Shown: piece after piece, positions 8,971 to 19,572 of the stretch
Position numbering within the stretch: position 1 is the stretch's first letter
How the letters are laid out: each line of letters begins with the position of its first letter
DNA from: Desulfomicrobium sp. ZS1
GTDB taxonomy: Bacteria > Desulfobacterota > Desulfovibrionia > Desulfovibrionales > Desulfomicrobiaceae
DNA: 64,000 bases
Direction of reading: 5' to 3'
Assembly: GCF_024204645.1 (NCBI RefSeq)
Contig: NZ_CP100351.1
Coordinates: forward strand, 1,488,001-1,552,000
The notes under the pieces: model-generated
Databases searched by the model: none
The model's input: only the letters and a program-made list of their open reading frames with translations
What the model was told of the DNA's origin: nothing
Position numbers and translations under genes: made by a program

Positions 8971-9050
8971 ATGGATTCCCGCCTTCGCGGGAATGACACC
9001 CCGATCGGCTGCCCTGCCGCACCGTCATCCCCGCGAAGGCGGGGATCCAT
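8971..9050. repeat. REP-like inverted pair
   Basis: Two opposed copies of the palindromic unit lie here: ATGGATTCCCGCCTTCGCGG at 8971-8990 and the reverse-oriented unit ending GCGGGGATCCAT at about 9023-9050. The same unit recurs at 35259-35371 and 60014-60117. Confidence 0.8.
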
Positions 9051-9095
9051 CCGTTCCGTCTTCCCTTTAGCGAGCAGAACAACTCGCCATCGCCC

Positions 9096-9128
9096 AAAAG
9101 CCTCCCCTTCGCAGGGGAGGCTTTTTTT
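9096..9128 (+). terminator. Rho-independent terminator after livK
   Basis: A hairpin AAGCCTCCCC-TTCGCA-GGGGAGGCTT followed by seven T residues (9122-9128) forms a canonical intrinsic terminator for the liv operon. The 337-bp gap 8931-9267 otherwise holds only the REP pair and the promoter region of the carbonic anhydrase. Confidence 0.9.
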
Positions 9129-9267
9129 CGGGCTGAAGTCCAAAAAACCCATTAATCCAAAAATGTTATCCATAGGGCCTGGCGACCAGGGGCCGGCCTT
9201 GCGCATTGCGCGACCGTGGTTATCAAGCTAAAGCGTAGCCAATACGAACGACTGTCAGGAGCGAAAC

Positions 9268-9885
9268 ATGAAAGAAATCAGCAAGCTGCTCGATAATAAC
9301 AAGACCTGGGCCCAGAGCATCGAAAAGAACATCCCCGGTTTTTTCCGCAAACTGGAGAACCAGCACAAGCCCAAATTCCTGTGGATCGGCTGCTCGGACA
9401 GCCGAGTCCCGGCGGACCAGCTTATCGGCGTCATGCCGGGCGAGGTCTTTGTGCACCGAAACATTTCAAATCAGGTCATCAACACCGACATCAACCTGAT
9501 GTGCGTGCTGCAGTACGCCATCGACGTGCTCAAGGTGAAGCATATCATCGTCTGCGGCCATTACGGCTGCGGCGGCATCGAGGCGGTCATGAAAGACCAG
9601 ACTCCGGGCCTGTTGGCTCATTGGCTGGAAAACGTGCACGACCTGATGGAACGCAAGGGCCGTCCCAACCTTGACGACATGTGCGAACTCAACGTCAAGC
9701 TGCAGATCCGCAATCTGGCCCTGAACAGCATCGTGCGCAAGGCATGGCAGCGTGGTCGCAACCTCTATCTGCATGGCTGGATCTATTCCATTTCCAACGG
9801 CCTGATCCACGACCTGTGCATCACGCGCGGCCCCGACAAGCAGGAAGAGGAACCCCTTGAAGCGCCACTGCGTCCGAAACATTAG
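9268..9885 (+). CDS. can: Beta-class carbonic anhydrase
   Basis: This 205-residue zinc enzyme interconverts carbon dioxide and bicarbonate in the cytoplasm. The beta-class zinc site is visible: Cys42 in WIGCSDSRVP with the Asp44-Arg46 dyad, then His98 and Cys101 in VCGHYGCGG. Length and motif spacing are typical of plant/bacterial-type beta enzymes. The ATG at 9268 follows AGGAGCG. A lipoprotein gene starts 9 bp downstream and is probably co-transcribed. The gene symbol follows E. coli usage by similarity of family. Confidence 0.92.
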   Translation: MKEISKLLDNNKTWAQSIEKNIPGFFRKLENQHKPKFLWIGCSDSRVPADQLIGVMPGEVFVHRNISNQVINTDINLMCVLQYAIDVLKVKHIIVCGHYGCGGIEAVMKDQTPGLLAHWLENVHDLMERKGRPNLDDMCELNVKLQIRNLALNSIVRKAWQRGRNLYLHGWIYSISNGLIHDLCITRGPDKQEEEPLEAPLRPKH

Positions 9886-9894
9886 GAGAATGCA

Positions 9895-10335
9895 GTGAAC
9901 AAACTCATCCTGATAACGATTTTCGCCTGTGCGGCGTTGTGGGGCTGCGTGCATGCCGACAACAAACACACCGACACGTCCCTGGATCTGATGGACGCGT
10001 GCATTCTGGATACACGCTGGAAATTGGTGGAGCTTTGGGGAAAACCCGTGGCGGAGGTCGAACGGTATCCGTTCATCCAACTCCATGCCAAGGAAGGACG
10101 CATCTCGGGCTTCGGCGGATGCAACAGCATCGGTGGCGGCTATGAGCTTAAGGCCGGCAACCGCGTCCGCTTCACGAACATGGCCAGCACCATGATGGCC
10201 TGTCCGGACATGAACTTGGAGCAGGAGTTTTTCAACGTGCTGTCCATGACGGACAATTTCGCCTGCGATGGAAAAACCCTTGCCCTGCACAAGGCGCGCA
10301 TGGCCCCCCTGGCCAGGTTCGAGGCCGTGCACTGA
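9895..10335 (+). CDS. META/HslJ-domain lipoprotein
   Basis: This 146-residue exported protein has an N-terminal signal ending in a lipobox (ALWGC, Cys at about residue 18), so it should be lipid-anchored. The rest is a META domain: ILDTRWKLVEL, then GFGGCNSIGGGYEL and MMACPDMNLEQEFFNVL, the hallmark pattern of HslJ and related heat-shock or copper-linked lipoproteins. Translation starts at GTG 9895, with GGAG in the preceding AGGAGAATGCA. Its biochemical function is unknown; family members are often stress-related outer-membrane proteins. Confidence 0.8.
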   Translation: MNKLILITIFACAALWGCVHADNKHTDTSLDLMDACILDTRWKLVELWGKPVAEVERYPFIQLHAKEGRISGFGGCNSIGGGYELKAGNRVRFTNMASTMMACPDMNLEQEFFNVLSMTDNFACDGKTLALHKARMAPLARFEAVH

Positions 10336-10350
10336 CACCCGGGACGCGAG

Positions 10351-10376
10351 GGCTCCGCATGGAGCCTTTCGTTTTT
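10351..10376 (+). terminator. Terminator after the META lipoprotein gene
   Basis: GGCTCC-GCAT-GGAGCC is followed by TTTCGTTTTT. The hairpin contains the ATG at 10359, which argues against using that codon as the start of the next gene. Confidence 0.7.
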
Positions 10377-10433
10377 CGTCCCGACGCGCCTTTTTGCTTG
10401 CCCTGTTCCCGCTATCTTCCTATTTGTTCGCCC

Positions 10434-11186
10434 ATGCCAGAAAACAGCCCCGTTCGTTTGAACAAATATCTTGCCGATGCCGGCATAGCCTCCCGTCGCG
10501 GAGCCGACGCCCTGATCCAGGGCGGACGAGTCTGCGTGAACGGCCTTATCCAGCGCGAGCCCGGAACCAGAGTCATTCCCGGCCAGGACACGGTGCTCTG
10601 TAACGGCGCGCCGGTCTCGGCCAACCAGAATGCCCCGTCCTCCTACATCATGCTGCACAAGCCGGTGCATACGGTGACCACGGTCAATGATCCCCAGGGC
10701 CGCAAGACCGTCGTCGACCTGCTGCCCGAAGAACTCCGCACGCTACGCCTCTTTCCCGTGGGACGGCTCGATTACATGTCCGAGGGCCTGCTCCTCTTGA
10801 CCAATGACGGCGAAGTCACCCTGCGCCTGACCCACCCCAGCTACGAGCACCCGAAAAAATACGAGGTGCTGGTGCGCGAGGCTGTGACGGAGAAATCCCT
10901 TGGCCTCATGCGCCAGGGCATGCGCCTGCAGGAAGGTGAACGGCTGGCTCCGGTGGAAGTCGAAAGCGTCTCCGATGCCGGCGGCGCGACGCTCTTGCGC
11001 ATGACCCTGCGTCAGGGCGTGAACCGTCAGATCCGGCGCATGTGCCGCGACCTGGGGCTGACCATCCTGCGGCTGCGTCGCGTCGAATTGGGACCGTTGT
11101 TTTTGGGGAGTCTTGAATCTGGAAAATGGCGCGCCTTGACAGACGCCGAAATAAAGACCTTGAAATCAAGCCTTGGTCTCGACTGA
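10434..11186 (+). CDS. rluB: RluB/RsuA-family rRNA pseudouridine synthase
   Basis: This 250-residue enzyme isomerises a uridine in ribosomal RNA. An S4 RNA-binding domain lies at residues 8-60 (RLNKYLADAGIASRRGADAL), followed by the catalytic domain with Asp113 in GRLDYMSEGLLLLTNDG and the C-terminal LRQGVNRQIRRMC motif. RluB (23S) versus RsuA (16S) is inferred from overall layout and is not certain. The frame is open from an ATG at 10359, but that codon sits in a terminator hairpin and the added residues are not protein-like. The ATG at 10434 fits the family N-terminus although it lacks a clear ribosome site. Confidence 0.88.
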   Translation: MPENSPVRLNKYLADAGIASRRGADALIQGGRVCVNGLIQREPGTRVIPGQDTVLCNGAPVSANQNAPSSYIMLHKPVHTVTTVNDPQGRKTVVDLLPEELRTLRLFPVGRLDYMSEGLLLLTNDGEVTLRLTHPSYEHPKKYEVLVREAVTEKSLGLMRQGMRLQEGERLAPVEVESVSDAGGATLLRMTLRQGVNRQIRRMCRDLGLTILRLRRVELGPLFLGSLESGKWRALTDAEIKTLKSSLGLD

Positions 11187-11198
11187 CTCTGGAGGCGC

Positions 11199-11765
11199 AT
11201 GAACAGTATCGCAACCAAACCAATTACCGGATTTTTCTGCGCGGTCCTGCTGTTGCTGCTGCTGGAGGCAGGCGCCGCCATGCTGCTCGTGAGCAGTGTG
11301 GGCTCGGCTGATGATGCCCCGGCCCTTCCGCGCATGACCCGGCTGCATGATCTGCAGGGAACCTTCTCGGATCTGGGTGGTCAAAGCTTCACGCTGGCCG
11401 ATTTGCAAGGCAAGGTCGTGGTCATCAATCTATGGGCCACCTGGTGCCCGCCGTGCCGGGCGGAGATGCCTTTTCTGGAAGGATTGTGGAAGAAATTTCA
11501 GGACAATGAGCAGGTCCGGGTGCTGTGCATCAGCAAAGAGACTCCGGCGGAAGTGCGCCAGGACCCTCTGGCGAAATCACTGACCATGCCCCTTTATGTC
11601 TTCACCTCGCCGGCGCCGCCGGAGCTTGATCCCGAAGGACTGCCGACGACATACATCTTCAATCGCCAAGGCAAGGTGGTCTTTGCGCATACGGGCATCG
11701 CCCAGTGGGATGCGCCGGAAATCGTCGCCTATCTGGAAGCCCTGGCCCAGGCGACGAGTAATTAG
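11199..11765 (+). CDS. TlpA-like membrane-anchored thioredoxin
   Basis: This 188-residue thiol-disulfide oxidoreductase has an N-terminal hydrophobic anchor (about residues 10-33) that places the thioredoxin fold in the periplasm. The redox site is WATWCPPC with Cys83 and Cys86, followed by the AhpC/TSA-type pattern ending GLPTTYIFNRQGKVV. It resembles TlpA/ResA proteins that reduce apocytochrome c or other periplasmic thiols. The start is 12 bp after the pseudouridine synthase. It converges on and overlaps the Nudix gene by 4 bp. Confidence 0.85.
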   Translation: MNSIATKPITGFFCAVLLLLLLEAGAAMLLVSSVGSADDAPALPRMTRLHDLQGTFSDLGGQSFTLADLQGKVVVINLWATWCPPCRAEMPFLEGLWKKFQDNEQVRVLCISKETPAEVRQDPLAKSLTMPLYVFTSPAPPELDPEGLPTTYIFNRQGKVVFAHTGIAQWDAPEIVAYLEALAQATSN

Positions 11766-12199
11766 GGGCGGGTGTGGGCCAAAACCTGACGAAACGATTC
11801 GCGGTTGGAATCCCAGTGCAGCTGGGCATCGACATCCCCGGCGTCAAACCAGTAGTAGCCGATATGCTCCGCGGAGAGGATTACTTTTTCGACTCTGACC
11901 CGGGCCAGATAGATGGGCTTGCGCAACTCGATGCGCGCGTCGGGGATGCAGAAAGAGAACTCGGGGATGACCACTTCCAGCTGCTCCGCGGTCAGCGTCA
12001 CGCCCGTCTCCTCTTCCACTTCGCGCAGACAGGCTTCGATGCAGGGCTCGTCGGGGCCTCGTCCGCCGGTCACGGGTTGCCAGTATTCATCATGGCGATG
12101 GGTCACGGGGCAGCGCAAGAGCAAAAATCGGTCTTCCAGATCGTTGTAGAGCCAGCATTCGATACTGAATTTTATCATGGGACAACTCTTTTGCACCAC
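11762..12199 (-). CDS. Nudix hydrolase (dihydroneopterin triphosphatase-like)
   Basis: This 145-residue protein has a Nudix box at about residues 44-66, with the core REVEEETGV preceded by GGRGPDEP. The family hydrolyses nucleoside diphosphates linked to another moiety, and the W-rich start (IECWLYND) and C-terminal YYWFDAGDVDAQLHW recall the NudB/dATP pyrophosphatase group, which I offer only as a possibility. The start is ambiguous: adjacent GTG codons at 12199 and 12196 follow GGAAGG, while ATG 12178 begins MIKFSIE. It is divergent from the ECF transporter genes with only about 50 bp between. Confidence 0.8.
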   Translation of the reverse strand: MVQKSCPMIKFSIECWLYNDLEDRFLLLRCPVTHRHDEYWQPVTGGRGPDEPCIEACLREVEEETGVTLTAEQLEVVIPEFSFCIPDARIELRKPIYLARVRVEKVILSAEHIGYYWFDAGDVDAQLHWDSNRESFRQVLAHTRP

Positions 12200-12249
12200 C
12201 GCCTTCCCCCGTCAAGCAAAACAAGGCCCATCCGCCCGCTGGAGCGCCC

Positions 12250-12651
12250 ATGAGCTTCGCGACTCTTGAGGAATATGGCCGCGACTATTGTGTCATCGAC
12301 ACGCACAATCTCTTTGTCGGCACTACTCTCGAGGATGAAATTCTGCTTCTGGGAGCGGACGACGAACTTTTTTCCGTCATTGCCCAGGAGTGCTCCCGCT
12401 TCGGCCTGCAGCTTGAACCCGGCCGCAAGCTGCCCTCCTATTCAGGCGGCGAGCAGAGCATCATCTGCTGCCTGCTGCTCATGCACCTGCTGCCCAAGGA
12501 AAGGCTTTCCATCCTCCTGGTCCATGTGCTGGAGACCCTCTCCCCGCGCAATCGCAGCCTGCTTTTGGACAGATTCGCCGCGCTTCTTCCGGCCGCGTCG
12601 CTCTTTGTTTTGACGGAAGATGGACCTAAACCCCTGGCCGATCATGTTTGA
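12250..12651 (+). CDS. ABC half-ATPase carrying only the signature half (ECF A-like)
   Basis: This 133-residue protein matches the second half of an ECF-transporter ATPase. Residues 18-33 (THNLFVGTTLEDEILL) resemble the Q-loop region of CbiO/EcfA, residues 63-69 (SYSGGEQ) are an ABC signature, and ILLVHVLETLSPRNR occupies the Walker B/D-loop position but lacks the Asp-Glu pair. No Walker A (P-loop) is present, so it cannot bind ATP by itself in the normal way. The next gene supplies Walker A and B but no signature. The pair could form one composite ATP site. It is the first of four overlapping genes. A truncated relic is the alternative reading, but the intact overlaps with its neighbours argue against it. 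Confidence 0.7.
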   Translation: MSFATLEEYGRDYCVIDTHNLFVGTTLEDEILLLGADDELFSVIAQECSRFGLQLEPGRKLPSYSGGEQSIICCLLLMHLLPKERLSILLVHVLETLSPRNRSLLLDRFAALLPAASLFVLTEDGPKPLADHV

Positions 12652-13162
12652 ACTCGCCGCCCGGACCTATCCCGTCGCGCATGCCGGATTGAACTTCGTC
12701 CTTGACCGCGCCCTTGAATTGCCAAAGCACAGCTGCCTGTATCTGAGCGGGGACAACGGCGCGGGCAAGAGCACCTTTCTGGAACATGTTCTCATTCCCA
12801 GCCTGCGCACGAAGCACCGCCTGCTCTATCTGGCCCAGGACATGGACCTGCAGCAGAACACCATTCGCACCACCCTGGCCCTGCTCGGACACGATGTCCC
12901 TGAATCTTTGGCGGATATGGCCGTGGCCTGGGTCAGGACCAGCGGGTGCCGGGACATCATCATTCTTGATGAGTTCGACAAATACGTGAGTACTGAGCAA
13001 CTGGAGGCCCTGAACCTGCCCGGATTCGACTGGGTCGTGCAGGTCTCGCATCTGCCGCGACGCGAGAGGTGCACTGAATTTTCCCATGGCTTTGAACTGT
13101 TCTTCGACAGACAGGAAGGAACGGACGTCAACTTAAGGCTCACACAGCTATGGCCACGTTGA
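12644..13162 (+). CDS. ABC half-ATPase carrying Walker A/B but no signature (ECF A-like)
   Basis: This 172-residue P-loop ATPase has Walker A GDNGAGKST at residues 36-44, a Q-loop-like AQDMDLQQNTIRTTLALLG, Walker B DIIILDE (about 104-110) and a histidine switch in VVQVSHLPRRE. The helical subdomain with the LSGGQ signature that should lie between the Q-loop and Walker B is missing: only about 25 residues are found there. It therefore complements the preceding signature-only protein. The ATG at 12644 overlaps the previous stop (ATGTTTGA) and fits the family N-terminus; an in-frame ATG at 12620 is possible. It should act at the membrane with the two downstream membrane proteins. Confidence 0.75.
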   Translation: MFELAARTYPVAHAGLNFVLDRALELPKHSCLYLSGDNGAGKSTFLEHVLIPSLRTKHRLLYLAQDMDLQQNTIRTTLALLGHDVPESLADMAVAWVRTSGCRDIIILDEFDKYVSTEQLEALNLPGFDWVVQVSHLPRRERCTEFSHGFELFFDRQEGTDVNLRLTQLWPR

Positions 13163-13746
13163 AACTGCTTGGCATCTTCGGGCTGCTCGGGGCCTATTTC
13201 CGGTTTTTCGTCTTCGGGGCAGGATATGAGCAAATGGACCTCCAAGCCGGGTTGCTGCTTGCGTTCCTGGCTGTCAGCGTCTGGAGGAATGGCCTCAGAG
13301 GCACCGTGCAGGCCATGTGGTTTATTTTGCCCTTTGTGCTGTCTCTGATTCTTTTCGGCGCTATCTTTCAGTGGGTCGGGCTCATGGGCCGCACCGACTG
13401 GATTCACGATTCGCTCATAAAAGCCCTGGTCTTTCCCAATTCCTTCCTGGCCGTGAAGCTGGGCCTTGAAGCCATCACCTTTCGCGACATCGTCCATCTC
13501 CCACTTGGCGCGGGAGGACGGCGTAACGCCATCGTCTTGAAGGCCGTGATGGAAAAATGTACTCCACTGCTGCACCGTTACCGTTTTTTCATGGACCTGA
13601 CCCCGCATTTCGACGGCCGACGCTGGCACAGATTCCAGCGTCTGTGCGCGGTCATCGTGGCCGCCTACATCAGCATCTACGGCCAGGCCGAAAAGACCCA
13701 GGCCCTGTTTGACCACCGCACCAGATACATGAGGAAAGAAAAATGA
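13150..13746 (+). CDS. Probable ECF transporter T-like transmembrane subunit
   Basis: This 198-residue membrane protein has about four hydrophobic segments in its first 120 residues (for example LLGIFGLLGAYFRFFVFG and MWFILPFVLSLILFGAIF) and a charged C-terminal part with HRYRFFMDLTPHF and FDGRRWHRFQRL. Classical EcfT proteins carry Ala-Arg-Gly coupling motifs that I cannot find intact. Its place between the ATPase fragments and an S component, with 13-bp and 4-bp overlaps, makes the energy-coupling T subunit the best inference. The sequence alone would not establish this. Confidence 0.55.
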   Translation: MATLKLLGIFGLLGAYFRFFVFGAGYEQMDLQAGLLLAFLAVSVWRNGLRGTVQAMWFILPFVLSLILFGAIFQWVGLMGRTDWIHDSLIKALVFPNSFLAVKLGLEAITFRDIVHLPLGAGGRRNAIVLKAVMEKCTPLLHRYRFFMDLTPHFDGRRWHRFQRLCAVIVAAYISIYGQAEKTQALFDHRTRYMRKEK

Positions 13747-14240
13747 AGAACATCAAGATAGCCGCCCTGTCCATCGTGGCCCTGACCTGCCTGACCACCC
13801 TCTTCGTGCGCATCCCGCTGCCGAGCCGTGGGTATTTCAACGTGGGCGATGTGGCTGTGGTCTTCGGTGGGCTGGTCCTTGGCTTCATGAATCCAAAGCA
13901 AGGCATTTTGTGGGCTGTCGGAGCCTGCGGCATCGGTTCGGCCCTGGCCGACATCCTGGGCGGATTCGCGGTTTTCGCTCCCCTGACCTTCGCCGCCAAG
14001 GGCGCGGAAGGCGCGCTTGCCGCCGTGGCCGCAAGCAGAGCCGGGGCGGTCCGTTACACCGTACTCGCCATTGGCGGAGCGGCCATGGTCGGAATCTACT
14101 TTTTCGGGGAAGTCATGATGCCCAACATCGGCCTGCAGGGAGCAGTGGCCGAAATCCCGGCCAACCTGATCCAGGCCGTGGGCGGCGCAGTGGGCGGCAT
14201 GTTCGCGGCCACGGCGCTCAAGAAGACGAAAATGATCTGA
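13743..14240 (+). CDS. ECF transporter substrate-binding (S) component
   Basis: This 165-residue membrane protein has five or six hydrophobic helices and the S-component pattern of the HmpT/ThiW/RibU-like families: YFNVGDVAVVFGGLVLGF, then GIGSALADILGGF and APLTFAAKGAEG. These vitamin-uptake subunits bind the substrate in the membrane. The vitamin is not readable, although a pyrimidine/thiamine-related ligand is common for this motif set. It overlaps the T-like gene by ATGA and ends the operon. No riboswitch is visible upstream of the operon; only about 50 bp separates it from the divergent Nudix gene. Confidence 0.78.
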   Translation: MKNIKIAALSIVALTCLTTLFVRIPLPSRGYFNVGDVAVVFGGLVLGFMNPKQGILWAVGACGIGSALADILGGFAVFAPLTFAAKGAEGALAAVAASRAGAVRYTVLAIGGAAMVGIYFFGEVMMPNIGLQGAVAEIPANLIQAVGGAVGGMFAATALKKTKMI

Positions 14241-14489
14241 TTCAACCCTACTCTTCAGCGACGTCCCGGCGCAAAGCACGGGTCGGGTCGTCGCTCGCGG
14301 GCTTAGAAAGCTCCCGTCCCTGATCCGCTTCCTGCTTCTGCAATTTGTATGACTTCAACTTTTTGTTGAACTCGTACAAATCACTCAACTGCGCCAGCAC
14401 CGTTTCAATGGAAAATTTGCTGAACTTGACGCAACACAACAGAGCTCACGCCGGGACGGGAGAAAGATATGAGAGCCCGAAGGGGGGGA
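14241..14489. other. Convergent spacer between ECF operon and yoeB
   Basis: This 249-bp region holds one open minus-strand frame (14248-14439, TTG start, 63 codons, lysine- and glutamate-rich) with no recognisable family and no ribosome site. I do not call it a gene. No clear terminator with a T-run was found for either converging operon. Confidence 0.4.
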
Positions 14490-14747
14490 TCAATCGTCGT
14501 AATGGCACCGGCACTGCGCAATCTGACAATCGTCGCCGACAATCCGATACACAAGTCGATTCTTCTCATCGATCCTGCGACTCCAGAAACCGGAAAGATT
14601 TCCTTTGAGCGGTTCCGGCTTCCCGGTGCCCACGTATGGATCTCGTAATATTTCCTTGAGAAGGCCGTTAATTCGTTTGAGCGTCTTTTTGTCCTGTTTC
14701 TGCCAGGACACATACTCTTCCCATGCCGAGTCGTGCCAAATAAGCAT
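14490..14747 (-). CDS. yoeB: YoeB/Txe-family mRNA interferase toxin
   Basis: This 85-residue toxin of the RelE superfamily cleaves mRNA on the ribosome. Family features are the start MLIWHDSAWEEYVSWQ, the block LLKEILRDPYVGTGKPEPLK, then SGFWSRRIDEKNRLVYRI and the C-terminal CHYDD. Conserved catalytic-region residues (Glu, Arg, His, Tyr) are in place, so it appears intact. The ATG is 1 bp after the stop of the antitoxin gene, the usual antitoxin-first order. Confidence 0.92.
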   Translation of the reverse strand: MLIWHDSAWEEYVSWQKQDKKTLKRINGLLKEILRDPYVGTGKPEPLKGNLSGFWSRRIDEKNRLVYRIVGDDCQIAQCRCHYDD

Positions 14748-14748
14748 C

Positions 14749-15000
14749 TTAATCCTCGCTCAAATCGCGCGCCGCACAGTTTGTTCCGCTGTTTAAATCG
14801 GCTACGACCTTTTCAAGATGGGCTTGGTTCTGGGCACTGTAAAACGGATCTCCGACTGGTCGAAAGGGCAATCCGTTTTCTCGGACCATGTGTGTTAAAA
14901 AAATACGGACAGCCGATGGCAAATCCATCCCCATGCTATTCGCAACAGCCTGAGCCTGGGTATGTAGGCTGTCGGCAACCCGGACCTGAATGTTGGCCAT
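14749..15000 (-). CDS. dinJ: RelB/DinJ-family antitoxin
   Basis: This 83-residue protein has an N-terminal ribbon-helix-helix-type dimerisation and DNA-binding segment (ANIQVRVADSLHTQAQAVAN) and the DinJ hallmark MGMDLPSAVRIFLTHMV. The C-terminal half should neutralise the toxin. It is followed immediately by yoeB. DinJ is usually paired with YafQ and YoeB with YefM, so this is a mixed pairing. Autoregulation from a promoter upstream of 15000 is expected for the family. Confidence 0.88.
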   Translation of the reverse strand: MANIQVRVADSLHTQAQAVANSMGMDLPSAVRIFLTHMVRENGLPFRPVGDPFYSAQNQAHLEKVVADLNSGTNCAARDLSED

Positions 15001-15125
15001 AATAGTGCCTCCTGAATTATTTTCATTCTCTTGAGAATTGTTTTCAATACATATGCACCCACATATCGGCAGTCAAGGCGGATCATACCCATAAGTGCCC
15101 GTTTCACACGTAATCATCACCATAA

Positions 15126-15161
15126 AAAGCCGCGACCTGTGATGGCACAGGTCGCGGCTTT
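15126..15161. terminator. Strong hairpin terminator
   Basis: AAAGCCGCGACCTGT (15126-15140) pairs perfectly with ACAGGTCGCGGCTTT (15147-15161) around a 6-nt loop. A-rich and T-containing flanks allow function in either direction. It lies between the antitoxin promoter and the cytochrome operon. Confidence 0.75.
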
Positions 15162-15190
15162 CACATTCGGGGCCGGACAGAATCTTTAAA

Positions 15191-15242
15191 AACAAAAAAG
15201 GTGCAAAACCGCGGCCCGTCACCCGACGGACCGCGGTTTTGC
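15191..15242 (-). terminator. Terminator of the octaheme cytochrome operon
   Basis: On the minus strand, a hairpin built from GCAAAACCGCGG and its complement (15203-15242) is followed by a T-run (complement of 15191-15200), 17 bp after the cytochrome b stop. Confidence 0.85.
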
Positions 15243-15258
15243 GTTGGGAGGGAGGACG

Positions 15259-15900
15259 TTATCGTTTTTTCTGCACTTCCCAGTCCGCCACCTCACCCTC
15301 CTCCACTTCTTCCCAGCCGCTGAACATGGCGGAGATGTGGCTGGTCAGGGTGTGGCCGGTGGTGGTCATGTAGATGTGAACGATGATGAAAGCCAGGATG
15401 GCGAAGGCGCAGGCCAGATGGATGAGCGCCAGCAGGCGCAGGTCCAGGAAAGTCCAGTTCCAGATGGCCCAGTCGTTGTACAGGTAATAGAGCAGCCCCG
15501 TGCCCATCTGCAGGGTCAGCAGAATCGCGGTCAGGCCCAGGTAGGTCAGGCGTTGCAGGGGGTTGTGCTTGGCCTCCTTGGATTTTCTGACCGGGTGCGG
15601 AAGCCCCTTGAAAATGCCGGAGGAATAGTAGCCGATGACCTCGAAAAGCTTCTTGGTGGTCGGGATGTACTGCCGCCATTCACCCGTGGTCACGACCCAG
15701 AAGACGATGAAGATGAAGAGGATGACCCAGGTCAGGCCCAGGAAATTATGGTACTCCACCGCCTTCTGGAAGCCGAACAGGGTGAAGGTGCCGTGGACCT
15801 CGAACCCGGTGAGCAGCAACAGGAAGATGAGCAGGGACTGAACCCAGTGCCAGAAACGCTCGAACCTCGTGTACAGGTAGATTTTCTTTTTTGTGCTCAT
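15259..15900 (-). CDS. Membrane cytochrome b subunit (b561/FdnI type) partner of octaheme cytochrome
   Basis: This 213-residue integral membrane protein has four long hydrophobic helices and paired histidines suited to two b-type hemes: RFWHWVQSLLIFLLLLTGFE, VEYHNFLGLTWVILF, LLALIHLACAFAILAFIIVH, and a terminal GHTLTSHISAMFSGWEEVEE. This is the layout of Ni/Fe-hydrogenase or formate-dehydrogenase gamma subunits. The ATG at 15900 follows AAGGAG with 8-nt spacing, and the gene begins 5 bp after the octaheme cytochrome. It would pass quinol electrons to, or take them from, the periplasmic cytochrome. Confidence 0.85.
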   Translation of the reverse strand: MSTKKKIYLYTRFERFWHWVQSLLIFLLLLTGFEVHGTFTLFGFQKAVEYHNFLGLTWVILFIFIVFWVVTTGEWRQYIPTTKKLFEVIGYYSSGIFKGLPHPVRKSKEAKHNPLQRLTYLGLTAILLTLQMGTGLLYYLYNDWAIWNWTFLDLRLLALIHLACAFAILAFIIVHIYMTTTGHTLTSHISAMFSGWEEVEEGEVADWEVQKKR

Positions 15901-15905
15901 ATCAA

Positions 15906-17531
15906 TCACTCCTTGCGACGTCCGATGCTGCTCACGAAACGCCCCAGCCCATGCAGGATGACCCCCAGAACCGAGGCCGCGACCATGGCCCAGCCGCCCA
16001 TGTTCAAGAGCTGTACCGAATCACGGCCGGGCATGTAAAAGCCTTCCAGGTGGTCGAGTCGACCGCCCTTGGCATGACATTCCACGCAGGCCACGGCCTG
16101 TTCCTTGGGCGCGACCATGTGGGTGATGGGAAAGACGTATTCCGTGTCCACGAAATCATACTCGCCGCTGTAGGGCAGCCCGTTGTACTCTTGGCCGATT
16201 GCGATAGCCTTGTTCCAGTCGAACTCGGCCCAGTATGCGCCCGATCCCTTGGGACCGAAGAGTTTGGGAATGACCAGGGTCTTGTTGATTTTGTCGTACG
16301 GAGTCTTGCCGGTGTGCACCTTGAAGGGGAAGATGCGCGAATTGGGGTCGCCAATGCCTCCGATGGGCCAGGAAACGCGCACCGTCCTGGACGGGTCGAT
16401 GACGTCCTTGGCCGTGGTGCCCCGGATGGAGCCGTTGAACCATTCGTAGCGCGGCACTTCGTTCTTGCCCCATATGAAATCGCCCTTTTTGGCGTCATAG
16501 TCGGGCTTGCCGAATTCGTCCTTCTTCACCTCGCGCTTCTTGTCCCCGGCCGTGGACCAGTCCCAATGCATCTTGGTAGGATTGACGCGGGCGTAGGTCG
16601 GGATGTGACAGGCTTGGCAAGCCACCTTGTCGGTGTGATCGTTGGCCTTCTGGTTGGTCTTGTGCGGCTGCGCTCCATGACAGGATTCGCACATGATCTT
16701 GGGCGTCAGGTCGTCCTCGAGCAGGCTCTTGCGCTCTGTGGAAGCCGGAGTGGCGTAGATGCGCCCGGCGATATTGTGCGCGTTTGTGGTGTGGCAGCGG
16801 CTGCAATCGAAATTCTGCCCATCGGTGCCCATGTGCACGTCGAGCTGCTTGTTGGGCATGGCCATGGATGAATCCAGATCGCCGTGTTTCACGCCGTCGC
16901 CGCCGCCGCCGTAAAAGTGGCAGGTTCCGCAGTTGTTGCGCCCCGGACGCCCCACCGACTGCGCCACCGCGTTATAGTCCGGGGGCAGGAATTCTATCTT
17001 GCCCTCGAACATGGTCGCGTTGGTCACGGGGTAACCGGACTTGGTCGGGAATTTTTCGTAGGTGCCCGTCTGTTCGTGGCAGACCAGACAGTCCACTTTT
17101 TCGGCCTTGCTGAAATCGAAATTCTTGTCCTTCCAACCGTAACCGATGTGGCATGAGGTGCAGCGGGGTTCATTGGAGCCCACGCTGATGCAGAAATTGT
17201 TGACGGACAATCCGCCCTTGCCTGTTTCCCCGCTGGGGTCGGCCGGATCCTTCCAGGTCCAGTGGATGGTCTTGTGCAGCTGCATGGCGGCCTGATTATG
17301 GCACGTCAGGCAAGCCTTGGTCACGTCTTCGGGCGAACTGAATTGTTGTTTGAGAATTGGATGTTGGGAATGGTCGGTGGTGATCCATCTCTGGGCATCA
17401 TTCTTGACGGTCTGTCTCGCCAGGGCTCGCCCCGGCGCTTCGCTGTCCTCCGTCGCGGCAAAGGCCACCATGGGGCCCAGGCACACGGCAAGGGCCCCGC
17501 AAAGGACTGCCTTCCATAACGTCTGATTCAT
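15906..17531 (-). CDS. Octaheme tetrathionate reductase-type cytochrome c
   Basis: This 541-residue exported multiheme protein has a signal peptide (residues 1 to about 25, ending VAFAATE) and eight CXXCH heme sites: CLTCH, CTSCH, CLVCH, CGTCH, CSRCH, CESCH, CQACH and CVECH. The order and spacing match the octaheme tetrathionate reductase (Otr) family, which in vitro reduces tetrathionate, nitrite and hydroxylamine; the physiological substrate here is not proven. A C-terminal hydrophobic helix (MGGWAMVAASVLGVILHGLG) anchors it to the membrane, beyond the classic soluble form. The ATG at 17531 follows GGAGGGACT. It is co-transcribed with the cytochrome b gene. The 223-bp upstream gap (17532-17754) is AT-rich and should hold its promoter. 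Confidence 0.88.
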   Translation of the reverse strand: MNQTLWKAVLCGALAVCLGPMVAFAATEDSEAPGRALARQTVKNDAQRWITTDHSQHPILKQQFSSPEDVTKACLTCHNQAAMQLHKTIHWTWKDPADPSGETGKGGLSVNNFCISVGSNEPRCTSCHIGYGWKDKNFDFSKAEKVDCLVCHEQTGTYEKFPTKSGYPVTNATMFEGKIEFLPPDYNAVAQSVGRPGRNNCGTCHFYGGGGDGVKHGDLDSSMAMPNKQLDVHMGTDGQNFDCSRCHTTNAHNIAGRIYATPASTERKSLLEDDLTPKIMCESCHGAQPHKTNQKANDHTDKVACQACHIPTYARVNPTKMHWDWSTAGDKKREVKKDEFGKPDYDAKKGDFIWGKNEVPRYEWFNGSIRGTTAKDVIDPSRTVRVSWPIGGIGDPNSRIFPFKVHTGKTPYDKINKTLVIPKLFGPKGSGAYWAEFDWNKAIAIGQEYNGLPYSGEYDFVDTEYVFPITHMVAPKEQAVACVECHAKGGRLDHLEGFYMPGRDSVQLLNMGGWAMVAASVLGVILHGLGRFVSSIGRRKE

Positions 17532-17754
17532 AGTCCCTCCATGAAATCTGAAGTGGAAAACAAGACAAAATCCATTTCTGACTATTTTGTACCACAAATG
17601 AAGATTCAGGCAAGCAGGCTCTGCAATACGGAAACTAAATCGGACTTAAAGAGTCCAAAATATCTTTGTGACATTCGATTGAAAAGATTCATTGTGAAAA
17701 TAATCAGGAGAAAAAAAGCGGGCAGACAAGAAATTTTACAAACTAAAGCGCCGG

Positions 17755-19572
17755 TCAGATTTTTCCGGACAGAGCCGTGAGTGCGGCGTGCAGGGCGGCG
17801 GCCTTTTTGGGGCCGAAGCCGGGCAAGGCGGCCAGGTCCTCGATGCGGGCCTGGGCCATGGCCTGGACGGAGTTGAAATGATCCCAGAGCAGACGGGCTG
17901 TCTTGGGACCGACTCCGGGCAGATTGCCAAGTTCGGAGGAAAGCTGGGCAGTGCGCTTGTGACGGCGCAGCCGGGAGATGACGAAACGATGGGCCGTGTC
18001 GCGGACATGTTGCAGAAAAAGCAGTTCCGGGCTTCCGGCCCTCAGATTCAGGGGATTCTTGCGCCCGGGCCGGAAAATGACGTCGCCCAGCTCTCCCGCC
18101 CTGCGGCTCGTCCCTTTGGCAATGGCGGCCAAAGGGACGGCAGACAACCCGTTTTCGGCCATGGCGCGCTCCACGGCGCCAAGCTGTCCCTTGCCGCCGT
18201 CGATCAGCAGAAGATCAGGCCAGGGCGGGCCGGATTTGGCGCGGCGTGCGGCAAAAGAAGCCAGGGCCAGATAGTCGTCCGCCGTGCCTTCAAGCTCTGG
18301 AAACGAATAGACGCGGTAGGCGCTTTTTTCCTCCCGCCCGTCGATAAAGACGACCATGCCGACCCGCATGCCCTCGCCCTGGATGTGCGAGGCGTCCACG
18401 CACTCGATGCGCTCCACTTCCCCCTCCACGCCGAGGGCCCCTGCCAACTCCGCCGCAGTGAGTTCGGTTCGGCGCTGGCGGAGGGCATGGGCTTTGGCGT
18501 TGGCCGTGGCGATGTCCACCAGACGTCGTTCCTGGTCGCCGCGCGCCTTGGCCACGCTCGCCCTGCCCCCGCGCATGTCGGCCAGGGCGTCTTCCAGCGC
18601 CGGATCCTGGTTTCCGAAGGCGGTGATGATGCGAGCCGGAATGAAGCGCTCCGCGTTGTAGTACTGCATGAGAAAGGAATCCGTGAGGCCGGCTTCCGCT
18701 TCCGGAGTATCCACTGCCGCGTCCACGAACCAGAACGTCTGCCCGTCGATGATCCGCCCCTGACGCACAAAAACGATGGCCAGCGCCGCGCCGTTTTCAT
18801 GGCCATGCACGCCGATGACGTCCAGATCGCGCCCGTCGGAAAACACGGCTGCCTGGCGTTCCACGGTCTCGCGCAGGGCGCGGATGCTGTCGCGCAGCCG
18901 TGCCGCGCCCTCGAAATCAAGAGCATCGGACAGACGCATCATTTGGTCATGCAACCCGGCCATGAGTTCGTCGGACTTGCCGGACAGAAAAAGCTCGACC
19001 CGGCGCACGACCTGCCGGTACTCATCCTCGGACACGGGCAGGCAGCACGGTCCCAGACAACGGCCGATGTGGTACTGCAGGCAGGGACGGGTGCGGTTGG
19101 AAAAAACCGTGTCCCGGCATTTGCGCAAAGGAAAGAGGCGGTCGATGACCCGCTTGGTCTCGCGTGCGGACAGGGCCGAGGTGAAGGGGCCGAAATAGAC
19201 CGAGCCGTCGCGCAGCACCTTGCGCGTCAGGCGCAGGGCCGGAAAGGGATGGTTCCTCGACAGGCAGAAAAGGACGTACTGCTTGTCGTCGCGCAGGACG
19301 ATGTTGTACTTGGGCCGATGCTTCTTGATGAGGCTCGCTTCAAGCAGCAAGGCCTCCTTTTCCGTGGAGGTGCACAGAAAATCTATGCTTTCGACCCTGG
19401 TCATCATGACCCGCACCTTGGGGGCGAGGCGATGCTCGGGCTGGAAATACGAAGCCAGGCGGCGGCGTAAATGCTTGGCCTTGCCCACATAAATGATTCT
19501 GCCCGTGGCGTTCTTCATCAGATACACGCCCGGGCAGGTGGGAAAGCTTGGCAGGATTTTACGCGAGATCAT
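17755..19572 (-). CDS. uvrC: UvrABC excinuclease subunit C
   Basis: This 605-residue nucleotide-excision repair endonuclease makes both incisions around a lesion. The GIY-YIG nuclease domain is at the N-terminus (FPTCPGVYLMK, GRIIYVGKAKHLRRRL), a UVR motif lies near residue 205-240, the RNase H-like second nuclease includes CVDASHIQGEGM and LLIDGGKGQL, and tandem helix-hairpin-helix motifs end the protein (LPGVGPKTARLL and LPGFGPKKAAAL). Length is standard. Its ATG overlaps the pcnB stop by 4 bp. Confidence 0.96.
   Translation of the reverse strand: MISRKILPSFPTCPGVYLMKNATGRIIYVGKAKHLRRRLASYFQPEHRLAPKVRVMMTRVESIDFLCTSTEKEALLLEASLIKKHRPKYNIVLRDDKQYVLFCLSRNHPFPALRLTRKVLRDGSVYFGPFTSALSARETKRVIDRLFPLRKCRDTVFSNRTRPCLQYHIGRCLGPCCLPVSEDEYRQVVRRVELFLSGKSDELMAGLHDQMMRLSDALDFEGAARLRDSIRALRETVERQAAVFSDGRDLDVIGVHGHENGAALAIVFVRQGRIIDGQTFWFVDAAVDTPEAEAGLTDSFLMQYYNAERFIPARIITAFGNQDPALEDALADMRGGRASVAKARGDQERRLVDIATANAKAHALRQRRTELTAAELAGALGVEGEVERIECVDASHIQGEGMRVGMVVFIDGREEKSAYRVYSFPELEGTADDYLALASFAARRAKSGPPWPDLLLIDGGKGQLGAVERAMAENGLSAVPLAAIAKGTSRRAGELGDVIFRPGRKNPLNLRAGSPELLFLQHVRDTAHRFVISRLRRHKRTAQLSSELGNLPGVGPKTARLLWDHFNSVQAMAQARIEDLAALPGFGPKKAAALHAALTALSGKI

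Follow-up and report, generated by a model that had tools for sequence, protein, structure and literature searches.

Two half-ATPases in place of two full ones: a putative one-site ECF transporter in Desulfomicrobiaceae and Cloacimonadota

It is an old question whether an ABC machine requires both of its ATP sites and what role the second one plays, usually studied by mutation or in asymmetric transporters that keep both domains. The latter include the ABC heterodimers BmrCD, TM287/288 and CFTR, in which one of the two sites is degenerate. ECF transporters of known structure (4huq, 4hzu, 4zir) are built from EcfA, EcfA', T and S, that is, from a gene set of two ATPases, a T component and an S component. 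Both EcfA and EcfA' carry full motifs, and the signature motif of each subunit is reported to engage ATP in a trapped state (PMC10368641). Here we describe an operon of Desulfomicrobium sp. ZS1 that has the same gene set, unlike known ECF transporters in that each of its two ATPase genes encodes only half a domain, the pair leaving one composite site only, and in that its T protein has no match to PF02361. The operon was found in a stretch of 64,000 nucleotides (the window, to which all coordinates refer unless another locus is named) from a genome assembled as one contig of 3.87 Mb.

All four genes lie on the forward (+) strand. The first (A1; 12250..12651) encodes a signature-donor half-ATPase of 133 aa and the second (A2; 12644..13162) an ATP-binding half-ATPase of 172 aa; the third (T; 13150..13746) encodes a 198-aa membrane protein that occupies the T position, and the fourth (S; 13743..14240) an ECF substrate-binding component of 165 aa that belongs to PF07155 and is related to HmpT. 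An in-frame ATG is also present in A2 at 12620, but relatives start at the position of the ATG at 12644, which was therefore taken as the start. The initial annotation had described the four genes as coupled by overlapping ends, and the junction letters agree, with overlaps of 8, 13 and 4 nt for A1/A2, A2/T and T/S, respectively. The ORFs and motifs were likewise confirmed at the positions first given (SYSGGEQ in A1; GDNGAGKST, DIIILDE and VSH in A2). The ABC signature of A1 occupies residues 63-69 (12436..12456, +); in A2, Walker A spans residues 36-44 (12749..12775, +), the Walker B Asp-Glu pair is D109 and E110 (12968..12973, +) and the switch His is H136 (13049..13051, +).

Motifs were counted over 53 aligned A1 rows and 53 aligned A2 rows, 18 from the family Desulfomicrobiaceae and 35 from a Cloacimonadota group; a family locus in which the operon is broken by contigs (G011) and a locus with a fused ATPase (L221) were left out. 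Motif columns, including those we name A-loop and coupling helix, were placed by the canonical spacing of ABC motifs. A joined-chain alignment (A7, 66 of the rows available) was made by varying the row sets in scripts until both motifs lined up; it still misplaces about 10 residues at the starts of A2 rows and at some A1 row ends. In A1, the SGG of the signature was present in 53/53 rows, the next residue being Gln in 32 and Glu in 21. Walker A was absent from all 53 (there is no G..G.GK[ST] in the window A1; the L095 row is cut at its N-terminus by a contig end), as was the Walker B Asp (0/53), and the catalytic-Glu column held Glu in 0/53 rows and Asp in 13. No conserved switch His was seen in these rows. 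At the D-loop, Leu was present in 53/53 rows, followed by Asp in 31, Ser in 21 and Tyr in one; in the window A1 the Asp is replaced by Ser. The initial picture of A1, with a signature, no Walker A and a degenerate Walker B, was borne out by these counts, except that the Q-loop-like region also ascribed to it did not hold up: the Q-loop Gln occurred in 0/53 rows.

The counts for A2 were the complement. The G, N, G, G and K of Walker A were each present in 53/53 rows (then Ser in 37, Thr in 16), and so were the Q-loop Gln, the Walker B DE and the switch His; the signature SGG[QE] was found in 0/53 and the D-loop Asp in only two. The first reading of A2 as an ATP binder without a signature was upheld. 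By this partition over 53 + 53 rows, A1 keeps the parts that one ABC subunit contributes to the ATP site of the other, and A2 the parts of its own site. Each half-ATPase keeps only what the other lacks, and the two can therefore form just one ATP site, for which all residues are present across A1 and A2, the complex itself being inferred. ECF transporters are defined by two nucleotide-binding domains with full motifs (Walker A, Q-loop, signature, Walker B, D-loop and His in each), which this pair does not have.

Profile searches against ABC models, proposed as a check, recognized only one of the two proteins, and that one weakly. A1 had no match in Pfam or NCBIfam. A2 matched PF00005 (ABC_tran) at 22.1 bits, below the gathering cut-off of 25, and its other matches were weak P-loop models; the NCBIfam ECF ATPase models TIGR04520 and TIGR04521 gave no match to A1 and were not among the matches listed for A2. 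In a PDB search, positions 18-120 of an A1 profile aligned with residues 90-194 of EcfA1 (4huq_B; E 0.043), and A1 covers an ABC domain from roughly the Q-loop strand to its end, the N-terminal portion with Walker A being absent. The A1 profile also matched the C-terminal, signature-bearing head piece of Smc (5h66_B, 188-residue chain; E 0.0044), of the SMC/Rad50 head domains. In SMC proteins two such pieces form one head in cis, whereas A1 and A2 belong to an ECF operon and share part of their content. The strongest PDB matches of the A1 profile were TAL-effector repeat proteins (29/58 rows), which we took to be compositional artefacts.

The S component was the only one of the four proteins with a confident family match (PF07155, E 5.4e-16, over the cut-off), in keeping with its first assignment as an S component. 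A wider S profile matched the HmpT chain 4hzu_S (E 1.3e-14), the sole PDB sequence match at E <= 10. The same chain was nearest in fold to the S half of a natural T-S fusion from a Cloacimonadota-group locus (L224; AlphaFold, pLDDT 94.2, pTM 0.89), with Z 16.5 and rmsd 2.1, the next fold match having Z 12.9. S thus met the tests for an ECF S component and for an HmpT-type relationship, in sequence and in predicted fold. It did not meet the test of the HmpT pocket residues, which are reported as Glu41 and His84, with Gln at position 43 (PMC4860826): in a hand-counted alignment Glu41 and His84 face D36 and K86 of the window S, both invariant (24/24 rows), so that the same place holds other residues and the substrate may therefore differ. 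By hand count, position 43 of the HmpT chain is Gly, versus the Gln of that source, and the numbering is not fully reconciled. By analogy with HmpT, the ligand would be a small vitamin or precursor; vitamin B6 or a pyrimidine-like compound is no more than a guess.

The T protein remains unresolved. Neither PF02361 nor any other Pfam or NCBIfam model matched the window T above cut-off, and hhalign found no match between T and 26 ORFs picked as CbiQ (by a crude rule, so that wrong ORFs may be included) or between T and the T proteins of the fused loci described below. No EcfT chain was among the fold matches listed for the T half of L224. EcfT is described as carrying Ala-Arg-Gly motifs (PMC11109136).

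No neighbouring gene or RNA element of the operon hints at a substrate. Window positions 9000-18000 gave no riboswitch or regulatory RNA match, and a scan of 20 operon loci for regulatory RNA returned tRNA only; regulatory RNA therefore gives no clue to the substrate. Directly upstream of A1, and in the same orientation, a tRNA-Ser(CGA) gene was seen at 16 of the 20 loci scanned (L203, L213, L214, L217, L218, L220 and L224-L233), 10 of the 20 having been picked because Rfam already showed a tRNA; at L224, A1 starts 8 nt past this gene. Directly downstream of the window operon lies a pair encoding a YoeB-like toxin (PF06769) and a RelB antitoxin (PF04221; 14490-15000, minus strand), and at 15259-17597 (minus strand) there is a probable redox module, in which a cytochrome b561-type protein (PF01292) comes after a multihaem cytochrome c (PF11783).

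Within the family, A2 was found in 19 of 22 genomes. T and S were found in exactly those 19 among 348 genomes of the order, and strong A1 matches (E <= 1.2e-36) in the same 19; four weak A1 matches in other genomes (E 9e-6 to 5e-4) fell in long open frames resembling ordinary ABC proteins. The order A1-A2-T-S was kept on one contig in 18 of the 19 (at L012, S is cut by the contig end), and in the one other genome, G011, it is divided between two contigs. Three family genomes (G016, G017 and G019) had no match to A1, A2, T or S; two of them are less than 90% complete. Over 15 pairs from six genomes, dN/dS was 0.12-0.27 for A1, 0.10-0.25 for A2, 0.01-0.25 for T and 0.07-0.21 for S. All four are working genes under purifying selection, and their joint presence in the same 19 genomes shows the arrangement to be more than chance.

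Outside the family, S was scanned for in named genome contigs, and the best 80 of 226 matches were taken as loci. One of these (L095), from a Cloacimonadota bacterium, carries A1-A2-T-S; at L095:1999-3956 (minus strand), the operon faces genes that look uridine kinase-like and thymidine phosphorylase-like by eye, without profile evidence. A motif scan of 71 loci (L095-L165), several of them cut by contig ends, found an ATPase ORF beside S in L095, L096 and L097 only. In the phylum of L095, S was present in 38 of 124 genomes; 36 of these loci were fetched, the other two being L095 itself and a contig with only part of S. Separate A1 and A2 genes precede T and S in 34 of the 36, as they do in L095. 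The exceptions are L206, with one fused ORF of 465 aa, and L221, with the end of such a protein cut by the contig. The survey that had been suggested for the split pair beside S and T in other genomes thus found it to recur. In 10 of the 34 split loci (L224-L233), T and S are themselves fused in frame as one ORF of 366-416 aa, which makes these a three-gene ECF system. The notion that the locus is a lone oddity of the Desulfomicrobium sp. ZS1 genome was ruled out by the 19 family genomes of 22 and the Cloacimonadota loci; on the evidence of gene content, the split-pair system is a family common to two bacterial phyla rather than peculiar to one genome.

At the cut-offs used, S was also present in 6 of 247 spirochaete-group genomes, in one of 151 genomes of the group of L097, and in eight others of 247 genomes of the phylum to which Desulfomicrobium belongs; its neighbours in these sets were inspected for G349 (L096), G501 (L277) and G350 (L097) only. 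A quick tree of 86 S sequences set the split and fused loci (58 rows) apart from the 28 others (SH-aLRT 100) and placed the family beside G436-G438 (98), with a program warning of long branches. Given that warning, transfer of the operon into Desulfomicrobiaceae is likely from these sequences but not shown.

A full-length single ATPase at this locus in related genomes would, it was argued at the outset, refute the reading of the pair as a one-site motor. Close relatives were all split. Five distant loci, L221 (partial) and four with complete proteins, carry a fused ATPase of one site, and therefore explain the split pair rather than refute the reading. The complete ones lie before T and S in L096 (titled Spirochaetes; L096:2720-4144), L097 (titled Abditibacteriaceae; L097:2729-4225), L206 (Cloacimonadota group; L206:1988-3382) and L277 (from G501, of the phylum of L096's genome; L277:1599-3041). 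By eye, all four N-halves have LSGGE, no Lys-Ser/Thr at the P-loop place, His-Gly at the place of the Walker B Asp-Glu and no switch His; all four C-halves have the P-loop Lys-Ser/Thr, the Asp-Glu and the His, and no SGG. The fused loci thus share with the split ones the S clade, the order of T then S, and the polarity of signature donor and ATP binder. They differ in that their two halves, joined in one chain, are nearly full length and each retain the D-loop Asp, whereas A1 and A2 are separate proteins from which the parts of the dead site have been removed. For L206 and L277 the best models were the ECF ATPases TIGR04521/TIGR04520, but below cut-off.

The distance from Q-loop to Walker B was 77 in 17 of 20 control ABC ORFs (one had 88 and two were mis-parsed). 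In the fused C-halves, a set with L221 but without L277, it was 69 (4/4), and in A2 it was 50-53 for the 35 Cloacimonadota-group rows and 43-44 for the 18 family rows. Such a stepwise fall is the picture expected if the site was lost first and its remains were trimmed later. Profile scores give only partial support to the idea that A1 and A2 descend directly from the fused proteins. An A1 HMM gave 37.0 bits for the N-half of L206, whereas the top-scoring of 20 control ABC ORFs reached 29.4, and it ranked the N-halves of L096 and L097 6th and 19th; an A2 HMM favoured a control ABC ORF (24.6 bits) over every fused C-half (20.8-22.8). L277 was not part of these tests.

The chief rival explanation is that A1 and A2 are pieces of one split ABC domain, A1 giving its helical subdomain in cis, and that the unit homodimerizes to form two ordinary sites. 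The two motif sets do sum to one full set, and the stretch between Q-loop and Walker B is 24-34 residues shorter in A2 than in the control ABC ORFs. Against this stands an AlphaFold model of A1 and A2 from locus L201, whose two genes share a reading frame interrupted by just one stop, which was read as Gly so that the two could be modelled as one chain. By DSSP, each half carries the later strands of an ABC domain, and they are therefore two domains, not two pieces of one: A1 has its own strand at the Walker B position, a D-loop turn, the following helix and the last strand, and A2 has them too. In the fused homologues the halves are nearly full length yet partitioned alike, and within one chain only an asymmetric pair is possible. 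Since the halves share the later strands and the fused relatives share the asymmetry, we regard a split domain as unlikely.

The L201 model (pLDDT 89.3, pTM 0.64, linker below 50) is less informative about the complex. The halves fold well, and the A2 half aligns over its whole length with EcfA of an EcfAA' heterodimer (4zir_B; Z 10.4, rmsd 3.6, 161 residues, 22% identity), but their relative placement is not confident, and the two together superpose on the twin nucleotide-binding domains of ABCE1 only at rmsd 15-18. Given that rmsd and the pTM, the model does not show the motifs meeting. The poor placement may come from the short link and the unpaired alignment; the prediction does not in any case count as support for a complex.

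The operon is instead, very probably, a dedicated group I-like ECF importer, in which A1 and A2 form a heterodimer of the EcfA-EcfA' type with its dead site deleted and the single remaining site drives T and S. The initial proposal that the two are complementary and able to build one composite site is supported by the invariance of the partition (53/53 and 53/53) and by the same asymmetry in the fused homologues. In such a transporter, A2 would bind Mg-ATP through Walker A, Q-loop, Walker B and His, and A1, through its signature and the D-loop region, would close the single site from the opposite side. As that site closes and opens it would drive T, which would topple S with its bound HmpT-like micronutrient. 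As in BmrCD, TM287/288 and CFTR, there would be one consensus and one non-consensus site; unlike these heterodimers, which keep both full domains, A1-A2 has one domain without its Walker A part and another without its signature part, the second site being deleted rather than kept. The A1:A2 complex, the use of one ATP per cycle, hydrolysis, coupling and transport are all inferred; directly observed are the genes, the motif partition, its conservation, purifying selection and the homologous fused one-site ATPases. Several points weigh against this reading: there is no evidence of A1-A2 binding, T was not detected as CbiQ/EcfT, the window A1 has Ser at the D-loop Asp, the A1 catalytic-Glu column holds Asp in 13/53 rows, A2 profiles do not favour the fused C-halves, and for A1 only the L206 N-half stands out. 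The system fails one defining ECF test, that of two full ATPase domains, and has an unresolved T; it most likely works like an ECF transporter.

Less credible still than a split domain is the idea that A2 (or A1) partners another full-length ATPase of the cell, such as a cobalt-type CbiO, with the other half acting as a regulator. Candidates exist, as the genome has one PF02361 CbiQ locus with an adjoining CbiO and many other ABC ATPases (92 PF00005 matches), but A1, A2, T and S occur together in every examined locus that is neither contig-cut nor fused. Both subunits are strongly reduced, as might be expected if A2 bound ATP merely as a switch without turnover and transport were facilitated rather than pumped; the Walker B Glu and switch His, which ABC proteins require for hydrolysis, are nevertheless kept in 53/53 A2 rows, and we give this idea little credence. 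That A1 and A2 are a decayed ATPase beside an S component, both halves being shorter than any ordinary ABC domain, was rejected as scarcely tenable in view of dN/dS of 0.10-0.27, open frames in 19 family genomes and 34 loci of another phylum, and invariant catalytic residues.

The initial annotation knew of no described ECF transporter built this way, and none was found in the open-access literature, most subscription papers lying outside the search; titles and abstracts searched there likewise held no description of half-ATPases in an ECF system. Fused one-site EcfA-EcfA' proteins were not found described in the open-access literature either, and fused ECF ATPases in which one site is canonical and the other dead are apparently undescribed.

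A trimmed-down ECF motor with a single site is the best reading of the split pair. It is also probable, with appreciable room for doubt, that the pair represents a natural ABC motor cut to one ATP site by deletion, one subunit having lost its Walker A part and its partner the signature part, with an ATPase portion of about 305 residues in the window (133 + 172) and one ATP used per cycle, and that it arose by way of fused one-site EcfA-EcfA' proteins and was later acquired by Desulfomicrobiaceae from a Cloacimonadota-like donor. Standard models miss A1 and T, and the analysis supplies an annotation for both. With four genes, and sometimes three, A1-A2-T-S offers a small, genetically clean system for the study of a one-ATP cycle and of the minimal parts of an ABC machine and, if functional, would be an unusually small ABC motor. 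In a family under selection in two phyla, nature has seemingly removed the second site, and the fused relatives would be the step before.
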